A stretch of DNA of 64,000 bases from Rhodothalassiaceae bacterium (GTDB taxonomy: Bacteria > Pseudomonadota > Alphaproteobacteria > Sphingomonadales > Rhodothalassiaceae), in the NCBI GenBank assembly GCA_026004935.1, contig BPKC01000001.1:1054001-1118000 (forward strand), given 5' to 3'. Positions 778 through 46,244 of this stretch are shown piece by piece. The first letter of the stretch is position 1. Each line of letters begins with the position of its first letter. The translations under genes and the position numbers were made by a program. The notes below the pieces were generated by a model, which worked only from the letters and a program-made list of their open reading frames with translations, did not search any database and was not told where the DNA came from.

Positions 778-3096
778 TCAGGCGGCGCGGGGCAGGGGAA
801 AGCGGGCTCCGAGTGCGGACCGCGCCGCCGCGGGGTCGTCGAGCCCCAGGCGCAGGACGGGGCGTTCGGCAAGCCATTCCTCCATCAGCTCGACGAGGCG
901 ACCCGCCGGCGGCCGGCCGGTCCGGCCGCTGAGCTCGCGCGCGAGCATCGCGATCGCGGCGGGCGCCGCGATCGGCTCGAGCGGGGCATCGCCGGGCTCG
1001 GGAATCACGAGGGCCGCAAGCTCGTCACGCGCCAGGGCGCCCGGCAGCGGCGGGCGGGCCGGGGCCAGCGCCACGGCGCCCGCGCGCGTCGCGATCCGGA
1101 GCGGCAGGGCGAGGGGGCGGACCGCACCCGGCCCTTCAAGATCGATACGCACGGCACCATGCGCGCCCCCCTCGCCGGCCAGCGCCAGCGCCGCCGCATC
1201 GAACCCCGCCTCGGCGCGGCTTGCGATGAGAATGGCGCCGCCGTCACCGATCGGCACCAGGCGGCCCGGCATCAGAATGGCGCCATCGGCACCTGCCAGC
1301 TCGAACAGCATCTGCCAAAGCACGAGCCCCAGCTCGTCCAGCCGGCGCGGACCCGTGACGAGCCGGTCGCCGAGCGCCACCTGATAGCCGCCGCCCGCCG
1401 GCAGCAGCGCAAGCTCCGGCACCGCCCCGGATCCTTCCCGCGCGTCGGCGGCGAGCGGCGCAAGGAGCGGTGCGAACCGCGCCGCAGCCGCCGGACAGGC
1501 GAGCCTGAGCCGCACCGCCCGCCCGCCGACCGCGAGCGGCAGCACGACCGCGTCCCCGCTGTGCGAGGCCGGCGCATCCGGGCGCGGGACGGCCCGGTCC
1601 GGGTCGCTGCCCGCCAGCCGGATCAGGCCTTCGCGCACCCAGTCGACGACGAGCGCCCACACGCTCTCGCGGGTGGCCCAGGGATCGCCGCTCGCGGCGG
1701 CGAGCTCGTCGGCGATGCGGGTGACCGGTTCGCCCCCGGCAAGCCGCAGCCACACGAGGCTCGCCACCTCGTTGAGGCGGATCACCCGCCCGCTCCTGCC
1801 GGCATAAAGCAGCACCCGGTCATCCTCGTAGAGCTCGCCGACGTCCCCGGGCAGGAACACGAGGTCGGGCACGGAGCCGTGGATGTGGCGGACGAGCGCG
1901 ATGTCCGCCGCCCGCGGGGCCGCCAGCGACGCGAGGTGGCCCGCCGGATCCGGCCCCGGGCAGACGAGGCGGAAGCCGCCGCGCGCAGCCATCTGCCGGT
2001 CGAAGGCGCGCAGCATCCGGTCGGGAAGCGGCGCGTCGAGCGCGGCGACGTCCGGCGGCTCGTTCAACCCGACAAGCGCCACCATGTCTTCCACCAGCCG
2101 CCGCTTGGTGCGCGCCTCGAAATCGCCGCCGTCCTCGGGCGCCGCGCAGACCTCGAGCGACGGGCTCAGGTTGCATTCCATGATCCAGGGCTTGAGATTC
2201 TCGTCGATCAGGCAGTCGATGCCGAGAAGCTCGTAGCAGCCGCGGGTGTCGGCCCGCACCGCCCACAGCCGCCTGAGCATGTGCTCGCGCGCGGCGATCA
2301 CCGTCATCCGCACCAGATCCTCGATGCGCCGGAAGAGAGCCGCATCGTCATGCCCCTGCTCGCGGATCCAGGCGCGGTAGCGGCCGAGGCCCACGAAGAC
2401 GACCGGATGCTCCACCCGCGTGTTGGTGGCGTTGACGTCCGGATTGGTGAGATAGCTGTAGACGTTGTCGGCATCGTCGGGGTCATAGGGTTCGGAGGCG
2501 AGCTTCTGGAACCCCTCCTCGTAGAGCCAGGCGACCAGCGGCTCCACCGAGGTGATGAGCACATAGAGCCTCAGCACGTATTTGCGCCCGTCCCTGAGAT
2601 GGGGGCGCAGCACGAAGTCCTGGACGATCCAGTCGTCATCGAGCGGCGCCGAGGCGGGATCCACCAGCAGCCGGATGCCCCGCCCGCGCGAGGAATTGGC
2701 GGGCTTGAGCAGAAAGCGACGGCCGGGGTCGGCGGCGGCCGCGCGCTGCAGCGCCACGTAGTCCGCGGGCATGTGGAAGGTGGTCGGCGCGAAATCCATC
2801 GCCGGCACGCCGGGCCGGCCGGCGACGAGTTCGCGGTGGGCCGCCAGCGTGCGCGCGAGATGACTCTTGATGGTAAGGGCGTTGTTGCCCGGGATGTGGT
2901 TGATGAAGCGGGTCGCATCGAGCCGCTCGAAGACCTCCGGGTCCGGCATGCCCGTGTACCAGCAGGCATCCCAGTCGCGGGGCCCGCCCGGCCGCCACAG
3001 GCGCCGGTCCAGCGCCTCGATGAAGAAGACGTCCTGTCCCGGCTCGCGGTTGCCGCCGCACCAGTAGCGCCGCCGGGCCGATCTCGCCGCCATCAT
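778..3096 (-). CDS. TTL-like ATP-grasp protein fused to PqqD-like and degenerate HprK-like domains
   Basis: 772 residues. Residues ~1-330 resemble the tubulin-tyrosine ligase (TTL) fold of ATP-grasp ligases, which join amino acids to a protein or peptide terminus: note FLLKPANSSRGRGI, KYVLRLYVLI and the metal-binding region WIMECNLSPS. Residues ~420-480 (VIRLNEVASLVWLRL onward) look like a PqqD peptide-chaperone domain. The C-terminal ~280 residues match the outline of HprK-related kinases, but the P-loop position reads ILIASRAEAGF and lacks GK(S/T), so it is probably not a kinase. PqqD domains bind leader peptides, so a peptide or protein substrate is plausible, but no precursor lies next to it. 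Start ATG 3096. Domain order seen; substrate unknown. Confidence 0.7.
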   Translation of the reverse strand: MMAARSARRRYWCGGNREPGQDVFFIEALDRRLWRPGGPRDWDACWYTGMPDPEVFERLDATRFINHIPGNNALTIKSHLARTLAAHRELVAGRPGVPAMDFAPTTFHMPADYVALQRAAAADPGRRFLLKPANSSRGRGIRLLVDPASAPLDDDWIVQDFVLRPHLRDGRKYVLRLYVLITSVEPLVAWLYEEGFQKLASEPYDPDDADNVYSYLTNPDVNATNTRVEHPVVFVGLGRYRAWIREQGHDDAALFRRIEDLVRMTVIAAREHMLRRLWAVRADTRGCYELLGIDCLIDENLKPWIMECNLSPSLEVCAAPEDGGDFEARTKRRLVEDMVALVGLNEPPDVAALDAPLPDRMLRAFDRQMAARGGFRLVCPGPDPAGHLASLAAPRAADIALVRHIHGSVPDLVFLPGDVGELYEDDRVLLYAGRSGRVIRLNEVASLVWLRLAGGEPVTRIADELAAASGDPWATRESVWALVVDWVREGLIRLAGSDPDRAVPRPDAPASHSGDAVVLPLAVGGRAVRLRLACPAAAARFAPLLAPLAADAREGSGAVPELALLPAGGGYQVALGDRLVTGPRRLDELGLVLWQMLFELAGADGAILMPGRLVPIGDGGAILIASRAEAGFDAAALALAGEGGAHGAVRIDLEGPGAVRPLALPLRIATRAGAVALAPARPPLPGALARDELAALVIPEPGDAPLEPIAAPAAIAMLARELSGRTGRPPAGRLVELMEEWLAERPVLRLGLDDPAAARSALGARFPLPRAA

Positions 3097-3306
3097 TCAC
3101 GCCTTTCGCCCGCGCGTGCATCCCGCACGCTCGCCGATGGGGACACGCGGCGGGCGCCGGCGTCAATGCGCCCGCAGCCCCGCTCACGAAATTGTGATCG
3201 CGATTGAGGCCCTCGTCGCTTGCTGGCCGCCCCGTGGCGGGTCTATCATCCCTGCGGGTCGAGCGGCAGGGGCGCGAATGACGGATGCGGCAGGGGAGAG
3301 CAGAAC

Positions 3307-4107
3307 ATGTCCGCGCGTGAAAAGAGGCGCCAGCAGCTTCTGGCCCGGCTTGCGACAGGCGTGATGATGGCGGCGCCCATTGCCGCGGGCGCCTTCGTGC
3401 ACGAGGGCCCGGCCGATGCGGCGCCGATGCTGATCGCGGCGGCGCAGGAGGCGCGCGGCGAGGCGGAGGCGAAGCCGAAGGGCGAGGCGGAAGCCCGCGG
3501 GCAGGCCGAGGCGAAGGGCGAGGCCGAGGCCCGCAAGAAGAAGCGTCGTCACCACGAGAAGGCGAAGGGCGAGGCCGAGGCAAAGGGTGAGGCCGAGGCC
3601 GAGGCGCATCACGGCCGCCATCACGAGGCCAAGGGGGAGGCCGAGGCCAAAGGTGAAGGCGAAGCCGAAGCCAGGGGCGAAGGCGAGGCGGAGGCCCGCG
3701 CCGAAGGTGAGGCCGAGGCCGAAGGCGAGGGTGAAGCGGAAGCCCGGCGCAGTCCGGACGAGATCACGCGGCCGGGCGGTGTGGCCCCCTATCGGGGGGA
3801 TCGCGCGGAGCTCGTCTCCTATGGCGAGAAGCTCTTCGCGGACACCTCGCTGTCCACCAACGGCCTCGCCTGCACCAGCTGCCATACGGACTTCATGGGC
3901 TACAACGACACCTTCAGGCAGCCCTATCCGCACTACGTGAAGATGGGCAAGGACGTCTTCGGGCTGGACAGCATCACCGCCGAGCAGATGGTGCAGATCT
4001 GCATGCTGATCCCGATGGAGAACAAGATTCTGCCTTGGGATTCGAAGGAGCTGGCGGCGCTTGCGGCCTATGTGGAGGAGCTGCAGAAGGAATACGCCAA
4101 GCGCTGA
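3307..4107 (+). CDS. Periplasmic monoheme c-type cytochrome with long Glu-Ala linker
   Basis: 266 residues from ATG 3307, which follows a GGGGAGAG ribosome binding site; the open frame upstream to 3220 is not needed. An N-terminal hydrophobic stretch (residues ~12-40) serves as signal/anchor. Residues ~48-148 are a low-complexity linker of GEAEA-K/R units with His-rich patches (RRHHEK, HHGRHHE). The globular part (~155-266) carries one CTSCH haem-binding motif (189-193) and candidate axial methionines at 233 and 237. Likely an electron carrier held at a distance from the membrane. No partner oxidoreductase lies beside it. The haem motif is firm; the role is inferred. Confidence 0.75.
   Translation: MSAREKRRQQLLARLATGVMMAAPIAAGAFVHEGPADAAPMLIAAAQEARGEAEAKPKGEAEARGQAEAKGEAEARKKKRRHHEKAKGEAEAKGEAEAEAHHGRHHEAKGEAEAKGEGEAEARGEGEAEARAEGEAEAEGEGEAEARRSPDEITRPGGVAPYRGDRAELVSYGEKLFADTSLSTNGLACTSCHTDFMGYNDTFRQPYPHYVKMGKDVFGLDSITAEQMVQICMLIPMENKILPWDSKELAALAAYVEELQKEYAKR
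3448..3750 (+). repeat. In-frame GEAEA-coding low-complexity repeat
   Basis: Imperfect tandem units of 15-18 bases based on GGCGAGGCCGAGGCC, encoding the charged linker of the cytochrome. Unit length is a multiple of three, so copy-number changes would keep the frame. Sequence varies in third positions between units, suggesting that the repeat is old rather than a recent expansion. Confidence 0.75.
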
Positions 4108-4330
4108 GGGGTGATGGCCGCGCGCCCGGGCGCGCCGGCCGCCCGCATCGCAGAGCGACACGCGCCGGCGAGCCGGGCACGAGCTTAGGGTCTACACGCA
4201 CTTTTCTACAGACACAGAGGGGGAGAGAGCGCAAACCGGCCCTCGCGACCGCATGGTCCGAGCGGCCGGTTTCGCCTGCTTCGGTGAGCTATGCAGGATG
4301 CAGGGCGTCATCCACGCGTTTTCCGGCCGT

Positions 4331-4359
4331 TTGCCATGCCGGTCGTGCTGATGTACGGT
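4331..4359 (+). promoter_or_regulatory. Possible sigma-70-like promoter of the retron operon
   Basis: TTGCCA (4331-4336) and TACGGT (4354-4359) are separated by 17 bases, upstream of an inverted repeat and the first gene of the retron island. The -35 is good, the -10 poor. Assigned on spacing and position only. Confidence 0.25.
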
Positions 4360-4369
4360 AAGAAGATCT

Positions 4370-4385
4370 AACGGAAATATCCGTT
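4370..4385. promoter_or_regulatory. Inverted repeat, possible operator of the retron operon
   Basis: AACGGA and TCCGTT flank a 4-base AATA centre, immediately downstream of the proposed promoter and 16 bases before the ATG at 4402. The operon encodes a winged-helix protein, so autoregulation at this palindrome is a reasonable guess. The repeat is seen directly; the function is inferred. Confidence 0.35.
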
Positions 4386-4401: not shown

Positions 4402-4986
4402 ATGCGTGCCAAAACGCACACCAAATCGAAAGCTCAACGACCAAAGAGCGCTGCTGCCTTGGCTCTCTATGAGATTGCCAAAAGGCTTTTGGGCATGGCG
4501 CAAGGGGCATCCAAGGGTGACCTTTCATTCGACACGCAGCTTCCTAAAGAAACCTTGATAGAATGGCTGGCTCGATCTGCCGCCAATAGGGCTTACTACG
4601 CAGCGTATCATGAGGTGACACGCCTGTTGGAAACCTGCTTGCGTGTGGACGCGAGTAGATTGCGTCACAGTAGCATGCCGGATAAGTTCAATTCGTACAT
4701 AAAGAACCTCAAACGTATATTACGTAAACAAGGTTACATTGATGAACATGAAAGAAAACTGATAAGCAAAACATACATATGTCGGTTAGAACAACTTAGC
4801 AGAAATTACAATGAAATGCTAAATTTAAGAGAGATTTCGGACTATAGGCCAGAAGCAAATATAATCGGCATAGAATTAAATGATGACATATGCTCATTTT
4901 CGAGTAGACTTACAACAATAACGAAAAACACGATGTTTGCTGCACAGAACGTATTAGAAGATCAACGTCTGAGAAAATATTTATAA
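4402..4986 (+). CDS. HEPN-like protein, first gene of the retron island
   Basis: 194 residues, ATG 4402 behind AGGAGGGG. Residues ~58-77 (RSAANRAYYAAYHEVTRLLE) and ~142-150 (LREISDYRP) match the helix 2 and helix 4 signatures of small HEPN proteins of the UPF0332 type. The RNase motif R-x4-6-H expected in active HEPN toxins is not visible, so catalytic activity is doubtful. The gene is strikingly AT-rich: 4741-4800 has 20 G/C in 60 bases, against a GC-rich background, indicating horizontal transfer. It lies 19 bases before the winged-helix gene and in line with the msr-msd and RT, so it is probably an accessory effector or regulator of the retron. HEPN assignment is by eye. Confidence 0.6.
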   Translation: MRAKTHTKSKAQRPKSAAALALYEIAKRLLGMAQGASKGDLSFDTQLPKETLIEWLARSAANRAYYAAYHEVTRLLETCLRVDASRLRHSSMPDKFNSYIKNLKRILRKQGYIDEHERKLISKTYICRLEQLSRNYNEMLNLREISDYRPEANIIGIELNDDICSFSSRLTTITKNTMFAAQNVLEDQRLRKYL

Positions 4987-5005
4987 CAATTTTTGGAGAA
5001 TAGAC

Positions 5006-5599
5006 ATGAACTCATGGCGTGAGAGGGAAATTATAGCAAAACTTATCCAATATACAATGCAGCTTAACAATTTAGACGTAGTAGATATAGTGTTCGACGG
5101 GGCGGATGGAAAAGAAAATGAATATATTTCGCAGGAGATCAAAGTGTACATATATAGATATGAGGAGAGCGATAGAGCAATAGAAAATCTTGAAACTTTG
5201 TCATGCGCACTCTCTTCTATAATAAATGTCGCCAAGTCAAGATTAAAAATAATAAATCTTGGAAATTATATTGGTAGTTGGTTGTTAATTGCTTTGATAA
5301 AAGAGAGTGGGCCCACAACTCATGATAGAATCGTTAATTTTTTGAAAGAAATGGGTCTAGAAACGAAACTTTTAGAAGAGGCTGTTAAGAGAAAACTTTC
5401 ATCTCTGAGGAAGCATGGAATTATTCAATGGGCTATGCCTGGACACGGATACGCATTGACAAGGAAGGGGCTTGCACTGGTCGGAGGGCGGCGGTCCGAG
5501 ACCGGGCCGGACATCAAACGCGTCATGTGGTTGGGGAGGCGATGGGAGAAAGAGAACATTGACGGAAAAGATGTTGAAAGCGAACGGTCGGAGGGGTAA
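5006..5599 (+). CDS. Winged-helix (wHTH) protein, second accessory gene of the retron island
   Basis: 197 residues, start ATG 5006 preceded by TTTGGAGAAT. The N-terminal ~85 residues are unrecognised. Residues ~90-160 form a likely winged helix: a helix at IGSWLLIALIKESGPTTHD, a recognition-helix candidate in KLLEEAVKRKLSSLRKHG, then a wing, YALTRKGLALVGG. The gene is AT-rich at its 5' end and becomes GC-rich over the last ~40 codons, where the stop (5597-5599) falls 10 bases before the proposed a1 of the RNA. It may repress the operon, bind the msDNA, or act as the effector. Which of these applies cannot be told from sequence. Confidence 0.65.
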   Translation: MNSWREREIIAKLIQYTMQLNNLDVVDIVFDGADGKENEYISQEIKVYIYRYEESDRAIENLETLSCALSSIINVAKSRLKIINLGNYIGSWLLIALIKESGPTTHDRIVNFLKEMGLETKLLEEAVKRKLSSLRKHGIIQWAMPGHGYALTRKGLALVGGRRSETGPDIKRVMWLGRRWEKENIDGKDVESERSEG

Positions 5600-5609
5600 G
5601 AATCTCGGG

Positions 5610-5773
5610 GCGGCGGGGGTCTCAGGCGCGGGTGTGAGTCACACCCCAAGTGCCGAGGTTGGGCATAGAAGGAGCGCCCGAGCCGAGGGCGCTCGCCTTC
5701 GCTCCCGCCCTCGGCTCGGGCGCTTCTCTCGAAAGCCGCAATTAAGGCTTTGCTGACATGAGGCTCCCGCCGC
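5610..5773 (+). ncRNA. Candidate retron msr-msd RNA
   Basis: A structured stretch between the winged-helix stop and the RT. Proposed a1 (5610-5626) pairs with a2 (5757-5773): 14 Watson-Crick pairs, two G-U and one mismatch in 17. The msr part has a hairpin at 5630-5646 (GGGTGTG/CACACCC, 3-base loop) and a weaker one at 5651-5665. The msd part is a long hairpin, 5670-5691 with 5706-5727, with 19 uninterrupted Watson-Crick pairs and a 14-base loop. A small hairpin (5732-5751) precedes the RT ATG. The branching G is probably in the AGGC at the end of a1. The layout a1, msr, msd, a2, RT is that of known retrons. Ends are inferred. Confidence 0.7.
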
Positions 5774-6780
5774 ATCTTTTGGAATCTGTCGGGTTTCAAT
5801 TCGGCGACCCGGATCTGGAGAAGACGACTGAGCGGCTTCTACGGGCGCTGCGTGACGATACAGGTAACGATTGCGACGAACTTCGAAACGAGATCAGACG
5901 CCTCGTCATCGCGCATCTGCCGCCGGTAGTGTCACTGGATGCCCTCGCCGTCATGATCGGGTACAGCCCGTCCTTCGTGTGGTACTTGATCCATAGAAAA
6001 GATCGCCTTTATCGGATCTTCACTTTGACGATGGGAAGAAAGAGGCGCCAGATTGAAGCTCCCCGGGTTGCGCTTAAGATCATTCAGAAGTGGCTGGCCT
6101 TCCATTGGGAGAAGAAATGGCGTGCGGATGTTCCGCAGTGGGTACACGGCTTCGTGAGAGGGCGTTCTCATCTCACGGCCGCGCAGGCCCATCTCGGTGC
6201 CAAGTGGGTATTATCCGTCGATATCCAGGATGCGTTCCCCTCCACATCCGCGGAGCAAGTAAGTAATGCCCTTCGTGCGCTCGGCTACCACACTGACGAG
6301 AGCGTAGAAATTCTCACTGCGCTCACAACGTGGGACGGGCGATTGCCTCAAGGCGCGCCCACGAGCCCGGTTCTCTTCAACATTGCTTTCAGCGCCATCG
6401 ACGGGAAGCTGGGAGCGCTCGCCCGGCGCCACCGAATACGGCTGACGCGCTACGCCGATGATATCGTGTTTTCCGGAATTGCCGAGCCCCCGAGTGGGTT
6501 ATTGGAGGACCTGCATGGTGTGTTCGAGGGATCGAGCTGGCAGATTCACTCGGACAAGATAGAAATGAAGGAAAGGCCGACCCGGCTAAAGGTGCATGGG
6601 CTGCTCGTGGATGGAGACCGGATCCGTCTGACAAAGGGGTACCGAAACAAGATTCGGCTCTATCGTTTTCTTCTGGAGAGCAAGTCCCTCAAGCCGGATG
6701 AAGAACGCCGGCTCAAGGGACATGTGGCCTATGCTGATCATGTCGAACGCCTCGCCGCCCCGGCGCGTGGCGAGGCGTGA
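5758..6780 (+). CDS. Retron-type reverse transcriptase
   Basis: 340 residues. It should make msDNA from the RNA just upstream. The N-terminal ~60 residues are helical, then the typical retron RT0-2 region (LAVMIGYSPSFVWYLI, YRIFTL, RRQIEAPR). Catalytic Asp155 sits in VDIQDAFPS, LPQGAPTSP at ~196-204, and the YADD box at 232-235. Retron hallmarks appear in variant form: AAQAH (141-145) for NAxxH and VHG (279-281) for VTG. No extra C-terminal domain. Start ATG 5758 lies inside the proposed a2, so initiation and RNA folding may compete. Base composition is intermediate between the AT-rich accessory genes and the chromosome. It converges on the amidohydrolase gene with a 9-base gap. Confidence 0.88.
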   Translation: MRLPPHLLESVGFQFGDPDLEKTTERLLRALRDDTGNDCDELRNEIRRLVIAHLPPVVSLDALAVMIGYSPSFVWYLIHRKDRLYRIFTLTMGRKRRQIEAPRVALKIIQKWLAFHWEKKWRADVPQWVHGFVRGRSHLTAAQAHLGAKWVLSVDIQDAFPSTSAEQVSNALRALGYHTDESVEILTALTTWDGRLPQGAPTSPVLFNIAFSAIDGKLGALARRHRIRLTRYADDIVFSGIAEPPSGLLEDLHGVFEGSSWQIHSDKIEMKERPTRLKVHGLLVDGDRIRLTKGYRNKIRLYRFLLESKSLKPDEERRLKGHVAYADHVERLAAPARGEA

Positions 6781-6789
6781 GTCCGCGGC

Positions 6790-8088
6790 TCAGCACGCGC
6801 CATGCACGCAGCGGCCGGCCTGATAGACGGCCACCACGTGACGCAGAGCCGAGATGTCGGCGGCCGGGTCGCCGTCGACGACGACGAGGTCCGCCACGTA
6901 TCCGGGCGCTAGCCGGCCGATCTCGCCGCCCAGCCCCAGCATTTCGGCGTCGCCGCTCGTGGCGGCGGCGAGGGCTGCAAGCGGCGTCATGCCCCAGGCG
7001 ACCATGAGCTCGAGCTCGCGGACGTTCCCGCCATGGGCGAAGACGCCGGCGTCCGATCCCATGCAGATCTTCACCCCCGCCTTGAGCGCCGCCTGGAAGG
7101 CACGGCGCTTGGCGACCAGCCGCTCCGGCTCCGGCGCCCGGCCGTCCCAGCCCGCATAGCGCGCCACCGCCTCGCTGGCGGCCAGCGTCGGGCAGTACCA
7201 GACGCCACGCGCCGCCATCAGCCGGAAGACGGCCTCGTCGCCCTCGTCGCCATGCTCGATGGAGCGCACGCCGGCCTCCGCGGCCCGCCGCATCCCCTCC
7301 GCGGTGCCCGCATGGGCGGCGACCGGCCGGCCGCTCGATGCCGCCACCGCCACGAGCTGCCGCAATTCCTCGGGCAGGAAGGTGGGGCGCGCCAGACCGC
7401 CCGGCCCCCAGCGGTAGTCGGCGTAGACCTTCACCCAGTCGATCCCGTGGCCGATCTGCCGGCGGGCGACAGTGACGAGAGCCGGTCCGTCCGCCTCTTC
7501 CGCGCCCTGCGGCACTGCGACCCGCGGCGCAAATCCCTTCGGCGCATAGGAGCCGCTGGCGACGATGGCGGGGCCGGCGGTGACGAGCCGCGGGCCCCGG
7601 ATGACGCCCTTCTCAAGCGCCTGCCTCAGCCCCACGTCCGCATAGCCCAGCCCTTCGGTGCCGAGATCGCGGATGGTGGTGAAGCCGGCGGCAAGCGTCG
7701 CCTCCAGATGCCGCACGGCGCGCGCGATGCGTTCGGCCGCGGACTCTTTGAGCACCTGGTCCGTCCAGGAGGTTTCGTCATAGGGATGCAGCAGCACATG
7801 GGTGTGGGCGTCGATGAGGCCCGGCAGCAGCGTCGCGCCCTGGAGCCGGCGCAGCCGCGCGCCGGGATGCGTGCGGGCCAGATCATCGGCCGCGCCGAGC
7901 GCCGCGATGCGTCCCGTCGCGGGGTCCACGAGCACCGCAGGCCCCGCCCGCATCGCCGTGCCGTCGAAGATCCGATCTGGCGCGAGAATGACCGGGGCGT
8001 CCGTCGCGCGAGCCGCCCCCGGGAACAGCGCCAGCGTGCAAAGCCCGAGCGCCGCGAGCGCCCGCCTCGGGATCGGGGGATGGTTCAT
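6790..8088 (-). CDS. Secreted metal-dependent amidohydrolase
   Basis: 432 residues with a signal peptide (ALAALGLCTLALFPGAARA). Amidohydrolase superfamily, imidazolonepropionase/prolidase-like branch: DAHTH metal ligands, a candidate carboxylated Lys in VKVYADY, His in AAHAG and IEHGD, and the catalytic Asp in GSDAG. These enzymes hydrolyse dipeptides or cyclic amides; the exact substrate is not shown. Its start overlaps the stop of the upstream permease by 4 bases, so the two are co-translated: import and extracytoplasmic hydrolysis of amino-acid derivatives is a plausible joint role. Confidence 0.82.
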   Translation of the reverse strand: MNHPPIPRRALAALGLCTLALFPGAARATDAPVILAPDRIFDGTAMRAGPAVLVDPATGRIAALGAADDLARTHPGARLRRLQGATLLPGLIDAHTHVLLHPYDETSWTDQVLKESAAERIARAVRHLEATLAAGFTTIRDLGTEGLGYADVGLRQALEKGVIRGPRLVTAGPAIVASGSYAPKGFAPRVAVPQGAEEADGPALVTVARRQIGHGIDWVKVYADYRWGPGGLARPTFLPEELRQLVAVAASSGRPVAAHAGTAEGMRRAAEAGVRSIEHGDEGDEAVFRLMAARGVWYCPTLAASEAVARYAGWDGRAPEPERLVAKRRAFQAALKAGVKICMGSDAGVFAHGGNVRELELMVAWGMTPLAALAAATSGDAEMLGLGGEIGRLAPGYVADLVVVDGDPAADISALRHVVAVYQAGRCVHGAC

Positions 8089-42124: not shown

Positions 42125-42640
42125 CTCTCCCGCCTTCCGCTTACGCTTTCTTGAGCCTTGAAACATCGCGCATGTTGGAGCAGGGCGCGCGCCATGATCA
42201 AGAGGCGGGCCCCACTACGCCGCTTTCGGGCGCGGGGGGTCCTTGCGGGACGGCGCATCCGTCGGCCATGCTGGCGGCGATGACGGACGCGGCGCCGCGT
42301 GCGGCGGGAAAGCCCGCGTGAACCGCCATGACTGTCGTTAGAGTCAAGGCGCCCCGGTTCCCGGGGACGGCCGGGGGGGGCCTGAGGGGGGGCACCGACT
42401 GCAAACGCGGACTCCAAGGCACATCCAGCCGCTTGAGTTTGAAAATAACGCACTCACGAAAATGTGAACACACGCACCCTTGACGAGAAAAAAAAGGGGA
42501 GGGGGGTAGGGTCGCCACGTCCGGTGGATGAGTCCCCGGATCTTCATCTGAGGAGGAGTCGAAGGGTGGGCATGCATCTCTCTCGGTTTCCGCTCAGGTG
42601 ATGGCGATCGGAAGTGAGCAACCAGTGGGGGAGAACGAAG
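42125..42640. other. Non-coding region upstream of the peptide cluster
   Basis: About 515 bases between divergent genes. It contains homopolymer-rich tracts, G8 and G7 runs at 42373-42391 and an A8 followed by a G-rich purine run at 42485-42510, then a stretch of ordinary composition. The promoters of both the symporter operon and the peptide cluster must lie here, but I cannot assign boxes with confidence. A weak TTGAGT at 42433 is the best -35 candidate. No gene seen. Confidence 0.5.
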
Positions 42641-42829
42641 ATGAGGCCGTCTTTCAAGCCGTTTGGTCTTTCTCATCAGGACCGTTGTCATCGGGAGTTC
42701 AGGGAGCTGCAGGAGAAAGAACTAGAAAGCATTCGTGGTGGATGCACCAGCAGATCTCCCAGGACCTGTGGCACCACAGTCGTCACCCCGAACGGGGACG
42801 GCTACGACAAGGCCGGAGATGCGGATTGA
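42641..42829 (+). CDS. Candidate RiPP (graspetide-type) precursor peptide
   Basis: 62 residues from ATG 42641 behind GGGGGAGAA. Leader of 34 residues ending ELQEKELESIRGG, the double-glycine pattern cut by C39-type peptidase transporters. The 28-residue core has two Cys, six Ser/Thr, three Asp in its acidic C-terminus, one Lys and a Tyr, with TTVVTPNGDG in the middle. Ser/Thr and Asp (or Lys) are the residues that ATP-grasp graspetide ligases join into ester or amide rings. The ligase lies 112 bases downstream. The leader lacks the PFFxRFLE box of microviridins. An upstream ATG at 42614 is less likely. Confidence 0.7.
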   Translation: MRPSFKPFGLSHQDRCHREFRELQEKELESIRGGCTSRSPRTCGTTVVTPNGDGYDKAGDAD

Positions 42830-42855
42830 AGCATTTCGCCATTTGAAAATGATTT

Positions 42856-42889
42856 CTTGCCGTCCCGGGAGAAAAACCTGGGCGGCAAG
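42856..42889 (+). terminator. Intercistronic hairpin between precursor and ligase
   Basis: CTTGCCG (42856-42862) pairs with CGGCAAG (42883-42889); after a single bulged T the stem continues through CCCGGG with CCTGGG (one G-U), closing on a 7-base A-rich loop. Thirteen pairs in all. The tail TAAATGTTT is only partly T-rich, so it may be a partial terminator or an RNA-processing stop that keeps precursor mRNA in excess of ligase mRNA. Confidence 0.6.
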
Positions 42890-42941
42890 TAAATGTTTCG
42901 CCAAACCACATAGACATGAGATATGAAAGATCGGAGGGGGC

Positions 42942-43918
42942 ATGGACTTTCTTGTTCTGGGAAGTGAGAAGGATCCGCATGTTCGAGGTGTTGTCGCGCG
43001 ATTAGTGGATGCCGGGCGCACATGTTCCATACTTGACTATTCTAAACCTTCCGATTTAGTTATATATCATTCTAACCGTGGTAAGTTATCTATATTTGTA
43101 GGAAATGAATGTGTGGATAACGTAAGATTAATATGGGATAGGCTGAAATTGTTTCCTGGTTCTCCTTTTATTTTGACGTTGCAGATTCGTATTATGAAGA
43201 CATCGAGACACAACGCGTCTTTTCGTACATGGAGAGTGAGTGGAGGTCTCTCTATGCGCTGATACGTGCAAAGTTTCCGGAGCGGATCGTCAATGATCCC
43301 CGTTCGAGTCGCAGAATGCATAAGCTCCTTCAGCAGGAGGTGGCGGCTGCTTGCGGATTTCTCATACCCCGCACGCTTGCTACCAATTCCTTCCAGCATG
43401 CACTGGATTTCGTCCGACAGCAGCGACGCAGCATCATCAAGTCGTTTTCCGGCGCTCTCGTGCGTTCACGAAAAGGTGAGCGGCCGGAAGCCCACGGCAT
43501 GATGACCATGCCAGTTTCTGAGAAAGATCTCCTGGAGGCCGGTGAGAATGCTCTGGCTGCGTGTCCTCACCTGTTTCAGGAGGAAATCCGCAAGGATTTC
43601 GAGCTGCGTATCGTCGTGGTCGGTAGTCGCGTATTTCCATTCCGCATAGATTCCCAGAAGAAGAAGCTCACGCAGTTCGACTGGCGGTACGGGCACTTCC
43701 TCTTGGAATTCACCGAATGTCGCATTCCCGAAAAGGTGGAAACGAGCTTGAAAAGGTTTCTGAAAGCTTGGAATCTGCTGTCTGGATCCTTCGACTTGAT
43801 CGTGGACAAGCTGGGACAATTCTGGTTTCTTGAATGCAATCAGGACGGCGCCTGGGGGTGGCTCGATGAAATCGTCGGTGGGGGGGATATCCGATGCATT
43901 CGCAACGACTTTCTTTGA
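42942..43918 (+). CDS. Graspetide-type ATP-grasp ligase (MvdC/MvdD-like), split by a -1 frameshift
   Basis: Read as one protein across a shift near 43166-43170. Frame 1 (ATG 42942, behind GGAGGGGG) gives the pre-ATP-grasp domain MDFLVLGSEKDPHVRGVVAR to FPGSPF; the second frame continues directly as YFDVADSYYEDIETQRVF and runs to 43918. Family marks: a GFLIPRTLATN segment, IIKSFSG, LFQEEIRKDFELRIVVVG, FRIDSQKKKLTQFDWR and the metal site FWFLECNQDGAW. Such enzymes install ester/amide crosslinks on a precursor peptide. One extra T in the TTTT run would restore the frame, so a sequence error, a recent mutation or recoding are all possible. AT-rich (43021-43080 has 20 G/C in 60). Confidence 0.75.
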
Positions 43919-44014
43919 GATGATCAGCAACGCCAGAAAGTCGTCTGCTCACGGGCGCAGTGAGTCGCAACCTCTAGAGAGTCGCGTGCGCTAGACTGAG
44001 ATGGGGAGGGAGAA

Positions 44015-44920
44015 ATGGGGCGGATTAAGCGCGCAAGAATGCATGTCACAGTGGGCGCTGCTCTGTTCGTTGGTTTGGTGCTCGGCGCTCCTCATGCGCG
44101 TCCGGCGGATGTGTCCGACCATGGTCGCGCATTCGATGTGCGGGAAGCGGCGCTCTATCGATGCGTGATAGAACTTGGCGAGGCCCTCCATGGAGAATCC
44201 GTCGCGGCGGATTCTGATGGCAGGATAAGTAAGAGTGAACCGGATGGGCAGGCGTATAGTGGGGTCACCAGTTGCCGGATCTTCCAGAGTGACCTTCCCG
44301 CATCCTCGGATGTCGCCTCTCTTGCACAGACAATGCGACGCGAGGTCGATCTCTATTGGCAGAAGCTCCAAGGAATGAGCCCGGCGCAGCGGCGTGCCTG
44401 CGCAGCCGTGTGGCGCCAGACTTGGAATCGCGCCCTCGAGGCCGTGAGCGCTGGGGTCCACGGAAAGGGGTTTCCCGCGCTCGGGCAAGGCCCCATCCCG
44501 CGTGGCCTTTCGGCGGTTCAGGAAGAATTGTTCGTTCGTGCCAGTTTCGATCGGGCGGCGACCAGAATTTTTGAGACGGATGATGCGCGTCGGTCGATGA
44601 TGAGACAGAAGGACGGATTTGACATTTCAAGCGGTTGTTTTGGAACGCTCGATTTAGCTGTGACAAGAGCGGAAAATGTCGTATTTTTTATGGAAAAGAA
44701 ATTGGACAGCATGTTCCGTCATGGCAATATTCCGGCCTCCCTGTTCACCGAATTCTGGGTTATCATTCAGCATGCCGATCTTGCCTGCGGGTTCCAAAAG
44801 CAAGGCCTTCAATTGTTGAAGACGTGGGGACCGCGCCAGAATTTTCCAGACCGGCTTATCACATCGCTTGAAACCCGCCTTTCCGCCCCGGGGCGATGGT
44901 GGTGCGAGGGCGGAAAATAG
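44015..44920 (+). CDS. Secreted six-cysteine protein of unknown function
   Basis: 301 residues, ATG 44015 after GGGAGGGAG. Signal peptide around MHVTVGAALFVGLVLGAPHA. Six cysteines in the mature part (YRCVIE, TSCRIF, RRACAAVW, SSGCFGT, LACGFQ, WWCEGG) could give three disulfides in the periplasm. Otherwise helical with no recognised domain. Lower GC than its flanks and 96 bases after the ATP-grasp gene, so it came with the island and may act in export, maturation or immunity. Function not inferable from sequence. Confidence 0.65.
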   Translation: MGRIKRARMHVTVGAALFVGLVLGAPHARPADVSDHGRAFDVREAALYRCVIELGEALHGESVAADSDGRISKSEPDGQAYSGVTSCRIFQSDLPASSDVASLAQTMRREVDLYWQKLQGMSPAQRRACAAVWRQTWNRALEAVSAGVHGKGFPALGQGPIPRGLSAVQEELFVRASFDRAATRIFETDDARRSMMRQKDGFDISSGCFGTLDLAVTRAENVVFFMEKKLDSMFRHGNIPASLFTEFWVIIQHADLACGFQKQGLQLLKTWGPRQNFPDRLITSLETRLSAPGRWWCEGGK

Positions 44921-45092
44921 ACGAGTTGTCCATCCCTTCCGGGCGTATCTTCCCCTTTCACCTCGAGAACAACGAGGGACGCAGGGATCTGGCGAGAGGT
45001 GCTTGCCGGGGAAGGCCCGCGTCGGCCATGCTGGCGGCGATTCCGGCCCCGGGGCCGGACGGGTGGAGAACCGGCTGTCGGGTGGAGGGTGC

Positions 45093-46244
45093 ATGGGACT
45101 GGCGGACTGTCATAATGTCGCGGATTTCCGGCGCGCCGCGCGGCGGCGGCTGCCGCTGCCGATCTGGCACTACCTTGAAGGCGGCGCCGACGACGAATGG
45201 ACGCTCGCCTGGAACACGCAGGCGTTCACCCGGTATCAGCTGGTGCCGAAGGTCCTCGTCGACGTGACGGACCTCGACACCAGGACCCGCGTGCTCGGTG
45301 CGGAGCTGGCGGCCCCCCTCATCCTCTCGCCGACCGGCATGTCGCGGCTCTTTCACCATGAGCGCGAGCTGGCGGTGGCCCGCGCCGCGGGGCGCCACGA
45401 TCTCATGTACGGCCTGTCGACCGTCGCCACCGCCACCATCGAGGAGGTGGCGGCCGCGAGCGCCGGGCCCAAGCTTTTCCAGGTCTATGTCGCGAAGGAC
45501 CGGGGGCTCGTGCGCGAGCTGGTCGAGCGCGCGCGGGCGGCAGGCTATACCGCGCTCTGCGTGACGGTGGACACGGCGGTCGGCGGCAACCGCGAGCGGG
45601 ATCTCAGGACCGGCATGGCCCTGCCGCCGCGGTTCACGGCCCGCTCCCTGCTCTCCTTCGCGCTCCATCCGGGCTGGTCGCTCAGGGCAATCGGCGACCC
45701 CCACTTCCGTCTGGCCAACCTCGCCCACCGCGCCGAGCTCAAGGTCGACCAGAAGGAGGGGATCGCCGCCTATCTCGACTCCCAGCTCGACCGCAGCTTT
45801 TCCTGGAAGGATGCCGAGTGGATGGCCGATCTGTGGGGCGGGCCGTTCGCGATCAAGGGGGTCATGCATCCCGATGACGTGCGCCGCGCCATCGATCACG
45901 GCGCGAGCGCGGTGATGCTCTCAAACCACGGCGGCCGCCAGCTCGACGGTGCGCCGGCCCCGGTCGAGATGGTGGAAGCCGCACGCGAGGTGGCGGGCGG
46001 GAGGCTGGAGATCATCGTCGACGGCGGCATCCGCCGCGGCAGCCATGTGGTGAAGGCGCTGGCGCTGGGGGCGGACGCCGTCTCCATCGGCCGGCCCTAT
46101 CTCTATGCGCTCGCGGCCTACGGCGAGGCGGGCGTGTACCGGCTGCTCGATCTTCTCCTCGCGGAGATCCGGCGCACGATGGCGCTGTGCGGCGCAAGAC
46201 ATGTCGGCGAGATCGACCGCAGCCTCATCCGCCGTCCGGCCTGA
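45093..46244 (+). CDS. FMN-dependent alpha-hydroxyacid dehydrogenase (LldD-like)
   Basis: 383 residues, TIM-barrel flavoenzyme. Markers: LAAPLILSPTGMSRLFHHE, FAIKGVMHPDD with the FMN-contacting Lys, the catalytic His in SNHGGRQLDGAP and VDGGIRRGSHVVKALALGAD. Oxidises L-lactate or a related 2-hydroxyacid. ATG 45093 follows GGAGGG; the open frame from 44868 overlaps the previous gene and is rejected. The TPP-dependent enzyme 123 bases downstream could use the oxoacid product. Confidence 0.88.
   Translation: MGLADCHNVADFRRAARRRLPLPIWHYLEGGADDEWTLAWNTQAFTRYQLVPKVLVDVTDLDTRTRVLGAELAAPLILSPTGMSRLFHHERELAVARAAGRHDLMYGLSTVATATIEEVAAASAGPKLFQVYVAKDRGLVRELVERARAAGYTALCVTVDTAVGGNRERDLRTGMALPPRFTARSLLSFALHPGWSLRAIGDPHFRLANLAHRAELKVDQKEGIAAYLDSQLDRSFSWKDAEWMADLWGGPFAIKGVMHPDDVRRAIDHGASAVMLSNHGGRQLDGAPAPVEMVEAAREVAGGRLEIIVDGGIRRGSHVVKALALGADAVSIGRPYLYALAAYGEAGVYRLLDLLLAEIRRTMALCGARHVGEIDRSLIRRPA

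Follow-up and report, generated by a model that had tools for sequence, protein, structure and literature searches.

Several described graspetides resemble the locus reported here. DUF6624 partners have been reported beside graspetides of groups 18, 20, 23 and 42, NHLM-type transporters often co-occur with groups 18, 20 and 23, and DUF6624 was considered to be perhaps a biosynthetic enzyme (PMC13097080). For CPR graspetides the core signature TxxxTx(6-10)Dx(1-4)D has been published, together with a broad graspetide leader motif, 'Phhx(1,2)h', and with 'cluster 23' proteins that are exported and have conserved His and Arg (PMC8939145).

The window that we analysed is a stretch of 64 kb (G000:C1:1054001-1118000) in a genome of 2.9 Mb. 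Its graspetide locus shares homologous ligases (5ig8, 5ig9, 7m4s) with the microviridins (MdnB/MdnC, MvdC/MvdD), but it has one ligase, a GG leader and an unrelated partner, and both the PFFxRFLE leader box and the TxKxPSD core are absent from 42641-42829. Membership of the microviridins was rejected on leader box, core and scores. With the DUF6624-partner groups (18, 20, 23 and 42; PMC13097080) the locus has in common an ATP-grasp ligase, a GG precursor and an exported, probably DUF6624-like partner, whereas this partner falls under Pfam detection and the operon is without a transporter. CPR branch-1 graspetides (PMC8939145) share the signature TxxxTx(6-10)Dx(1-4)D and possibly a related exported partner, but they belong to another phylum, and the core in the window (TPNxDGxD) is otherwise unrelated. 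Three loci of the same genome (L011, L012 and L013) resemble it in a sister ligase clade, [KR]PF leaders, GG and a downstream exported protein; however, the C-terminus of their cores reads DDxx[VI]D[AF][EN], and their downstream protein keeps QIYG[ST]YG where the partner in the window has IIQHAD. The locus is thus of a known class, the graspetides, with a little-known peptide core. As far as sequence comparison reaches, its graspetide ancestry is firm, and we consider it very likely that we are looking at a small acquired operon whose peptide would receive two ester rings, be cleaved after GG and leave by C39 export, with an extracytoplasmic partner and a ligase that is now broken.

Layout and composition of the locus

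The locus consists of three genes in the order precursor, ATP-grasp ligase and exported partner, each preceded by a purine-rich ribosome-binding site of good quality (Table 1). The earlier note had placed peptide, ligase and secreted protein on a single strand in a region of low GC content, and both points stand: all three genes are on the + strand, and 43021-43080 contains exactly 20 G/C per 60. The GC content of the island is 35-60% versus ∼70% in the surrounding window; per 1 kb it is 0.505 at 43001-44000 with flanks of about 0.70, and the minimum is 0.35-0.37 per 100 bp across 43000-43199. The neighbours, which we take from sequence and general knowledge to be actP-like, lldD-like and ilvB-like, look like ordinary chromosomal genes. 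Promoter and terminator scans gave matches at about chance level. Relatives were absent from viral contigs and present on plasmids only at <60% identity. The cluster was probably imported as a small graspetide gene set. The window contains a second AT-rich island (4402-6780, with a GC minimum of 0.30 per 100 bp), which carries a type IX retron set (HEPN_IX 1.6e-13, HTH_IX 6.9e-15, RT_IX 5.5e-118).

Table 1. Features of the graspetide locus and its bracketing repeats. L058 is the locus of G105 (same order, other family), L008 that of a Lysobacterales MAG and L027 the decayed locus of G005 (same family).
Feature	Position	Strand	Remarks
Precursor leader, 34 aa, MRPSFKPF...ELESIRGG	42641..42742	+	Homologous to L058 and L008 leaders; weak match to GG-leader models
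Precursor core, 28 aa, plus stop: CTSRSPRTCGTTVVTPNGDGYDKAGDAD	42743..42829	+	Residues invariant in three precursors
Graspetide ligase, N-terminal part, first frame	42942..43165	+	tblastn with L058 and L008 ligases, 31-38% identity
Frame change at short T-run	43158..43172	+	Homology crosses frames here; first frame ends at 43262
Ligase, ATP-grasp catalytic part, second frame	43166..43918	+	39-44% identity to L058/L008
Exported partner, probable remote DUF6624 relative, RAEN...WxxIQHAD...FQ	44015..44920	+	Homologue directly 3' of ligase in L058 and L027
Imperfect direct repeat around the island, left copy	42232..42297	+	66-68 bp, 74-78% identical to 44992-45057
Right copy of direct repeat	44992..45057	+	Just before lldD-like start at 45093

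The precursor is conserved together with its ligase

The 62-residue double-glycine-leader peptide described in the earlier note was recovered as a 62-aa ORF from the ATG at 42641, in which ...ELESIRGG is followed by CTSRSPRTCGTTVVTPNGDGYDKAGDAD. GG-leader models match its leader weakly, below cut-off (ComC, 0.0031; bact_IIb, 0.0044). Homologous precursors are present in G105 (E 2.5e-9) and in L008, and T45, V48-T49-P50-N51, D53-G54, D56 and D60-A61 are invariant across the three, so that all of them show the C-terminal pattern TxxVTPNxDGxDxxxDA after the GG leader. The invariant positions include candidate acceptors and donors for side-chain crosslinks (T45, T49, D53, D56 and D60). When sequences were shuffled, 0 of 5000 reached the score of any pair, whether leader, core or whole precursor was compared. 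Only the window and G105 share two Cys near the start of the core. The signature TxxxTx(6-10)Dx(1-4)D is matched by all three cores, but also by 3-8% of shuffled cores, and alone it is therefore weak evidence. At several positions, the spacing T-P-N-x-D-G-x-D-x3-D agrees with that of a DxDxDG-type calcium loop; in a peptide rich in Asp, chance may account for this.

The leader had been said to lack the PFFxRFLE box. The box is indeed absent, with the qualification that the KPF segment resembles the broad motif 'Phhx(1,2)h' (PMC8939145); [KR]PF also occurs in the leaders of three sibling precursors of the same genome. A survey of 398 genomes of the phylum sample with a precursor profile gave one weak match (E 3.6e-4), and no precursor was found in the two same-family genomes in which it was sought (G005 and G006).

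In G105, the precursor is followed by an intact ligase of 348 aa and a partner of 274 aa, the genes of the latter two overlapping. In L008, the precursor sits between an ABC transporter, whose N-terminus reads as C39-peptidase-like, and an intact ligase. These are the two closest intact ligases, and each has a homologous GG precursor directly upstream. In the ligase tree, the window, G105, G005 and L008 form a clade of exactly these four (support 97/98). This clade matches the precursor family; thus ligase and precursor travel together, a homologous precursor being conserved beside the ligase. The arrangement that the earlier note had named as refuting its reading, homologous ligases with unrelated precursors and no small peptide, was checked for and is not seen at these two closest intact ligases. 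Taken together, the ligase matches and the conserved precursor-ligase pairs support a graspetide-type RiPP cluster of a non-microviridin group, as had been proposed.

The ligase is a relative of MvdC/MvdD and is split by a frame change

When read through the break, the ligase bears out the suspected MvdC/MvdD likeness (MvdC, 1.9e-36; MvdD, 6.5e-34), and it also matches the graspetide maturase model TIGR04187 (GRASP_SAV_5884; 1.8e-49). It remains below every NCBIfam cut-off, with 168.7 of 350 bits for the TIGR04187 subfamily and 125.8 of 425 and 117.5 of 475 bits for the MvdC and MvdD equivalogs. As these scores are far under the curated cut-offs, the ligase is a relative, not a member, of these subfamilies. 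The catalytic part retains the D...LECN segment. Among solved proteins, the intact G105 ligase matched 5ig8 (3.3e-24), 7mgv (CdnC; 3.4e-24), 5ig9 (6.8e-18) and 7drm (1.4e-4), and in addition AMdnB (7m4s) and an MvdD-like protein (9bou); we take 5ig8/5ig9 to be MdnB/MdnC and 7drm to be PsnB. Models, tblastn and PDB relatives all identify a homologue of graspetide ATP-grasp ligases.

In tblastn, homology to the intact relatives extends over the full length of the ligase yet is split over two frames, with the switch at about 43165, which means one frame change. An intact ligase is therefore found in L058 and L008 but not in the window, a difference that concerns present function and not ancestry. 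It is conceivable, although we doubt it, that the cluster is functional and that the frame change reflects an error in sequencing or that slippage on the T-run gets around it. The event apparently involves one base in a short homopolymer, and this base may be a sequencing error; the precursor and partner ORFs are intact, and a second ligase of the same genome, that of L013, is likewise split over two overlapping frames. However, no canonical slippery heptamer was seen at the site, and a scan of coding frames across the 64-kb window found frame switches elsewhere at gene boundaries only, which does not support general frame damage in the assembly. Moreover, the orthologues in two same-family genomes have been damaged independently: the G005 ligase has a frame change and a truncated end adjoined by transposase-like ORFs, and the G006 ligase is a fragment with a stop in frame. 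Given the clean scan and these damaged orthologues, the break is probably real. We infer from the sequence that the ligase has probably lost its function here; with the ligase frame changed, the locus probably yields no product at present, and it is probably silent or dying.

The exported partner is a probable remote relative of DUF6624

The third gene corresponds to the six-Cys protein that the earlier note had described as secreted. Its product of 301 aa begins with what is plausibly a signal peptide, and of the six Cys four (Cys 50, 87, 129 and 208) are common to its relatives. In both G105 and G005, the gene directly after the ligase encodes a homologue, and RAEN and IIQHADL are invariant. 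A Pfam search with the partner alone returned zero families at E up to 10, and the DUF6624 (PF20329) HMM matched neither the partner at E up to 10 nor anything in its own genome. In hhalign against a two-protein DUF6624 profile, QHAD...FQ was aligned with a probability of 72% (E 3.5e-5, 46 columns, small profiles), and we regard the partner as a probable remote relative of DUF6624. The partner-type protein of L011-L013 aligns with another part of DUF6624 (52%, E 1.4e-4); a direct profile link between the two partner families was tried and is unsupported (probability 1.5%). The AlphaFold model of the partner was unusable (mean pLDDT 41.6). The 'cluster 23' proteins of PMC8939145 may belong to the same family.

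As L008 has no partner gene, the partner is not obligatory. A role in immunity or self-protection rather than as a biosynthetic enzyme, which is compatible with the acquired operon that we favour, can be put forward only tentatively: the protein is exported, and the ORF at the partner position is open in all three loci with a broken ligase (the window, L013 and L027), but with n=3 this would occur by chance in 1 of 8 cases if both genes decay equally, the partner is absent from L008, and DUF6624 has been suggested as a possible biosynthetic enzyme (PMC13097080). What DUF6624-type partners do is an open question, to which the locus contributes a further case.

Proposed product

In the mechanism that we propose, an intact ligase would bind the precursor leader (KPF...ELESIRGG), use ATP to phosphorylate Asp side chains of the core and link the activated Asp to hydroxyls of core Thr, so that two ester rings form (-36 Da). 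The conserved core and its fit to TxxxTx(6-10)Dx(1-4)D predict a nested arrangement, the most likely pairing being Thr45-Asp60 and Thr49-Asp56. The leader would then be removed by cleavage after GG, and export of the peptide would use an ABC transporter of the C39-peptidase type whose gene lies at another place in the genome; C39 domains do occur elsewhere in it, one of them in a 787-aa frame, and a candidate transporter lies at C1:2315434. Outside the cytoplasm, the partner could act in maturation, delivery or self-protection. The predicted ring pattern is directly testable, and the family, with three conserved precursors, offers two intact precursor-ligase pairs suited to expression. It is very improbable that the ligase relative, instead of cyclising side chains, works on a different substrate, with the small ORF as a plain class II bacteriocin-like peptide: GG-leader bacteriocin models do match the leader weakly and a recognised precursor is lacking for some ATP-grasp branches (PMC8939145), but the closest solved relatives are graspetide ligases, three genomes have precursor and ligase together, and the ligase clade tracks the precursor family.

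Direct repeats and other graspetide loci of the genome

The island is bracketed by an imperfect direct repeat (Table 1). For its 21-mer core, the window contains 2 matches versus 0.02 expected, and a 23-mer, searched in the whole genome with up to 3 mismatches, occurs only at the two island-flanking places. Direct repeats also bracket two of the five other graspetide loci: L011 has a 751-bp repeat (95.6% identity, 2983-3733 / 6642-7376), and L015 a 131-bp repeat (77%, 4261-4384 / 7191-7317) that duplicates a ubiA-like 3' end. No brackets were found at L012, L013 and L014. In the same-genus genome G001, the small gene found beyond the L015 island here comes within 70 bp after the ubiA-like gene, which means that this island was either inserted in this genome or cleanly lost in G001. 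An empty site for the window island was not found; the same-genus contig starts inside lldD, and the upstream neighbour is unmatched in relatives. One might speculate that the graspetide operons of this lineage are compact, repeat-bracketed mobile cassettes that integrate next to core genes and leave a duplicated stretch at the junction, but we regard this as unlikely.

The genome carries seven graspetide ligases at six loci; of the 398 genomes sampled in the order, 18 carry any graspetide ligase. GG/SG-type small peptides stand alongside the six further ligases, and all the other loci lie in GC valleys of variable depth. With several of its loci bracketed by repeats, this genome is a setting for how graspetide clusters spread and die. 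At L013 (5707-6916; G000:C1 about 731.7-732.9 kb), the ligase runs over two overlapping frames and the precursor and partner ORFs are open. At L015 (4435-6732), the ligase is accompanied by a ChaN/Tiki-like protein (PF04187, 3.1e-6). Near the decayed G005 locus (L027 4122-6650) there is an 842-aa Sel1-like repeat protein with tandem units of ∼108 bp. Finally, L014 (G000:C1:2286500-2300500) contains two adjacent ligases with three small SG-type peptides, which have RxLARxL-like leaders and Cys-containing cores.
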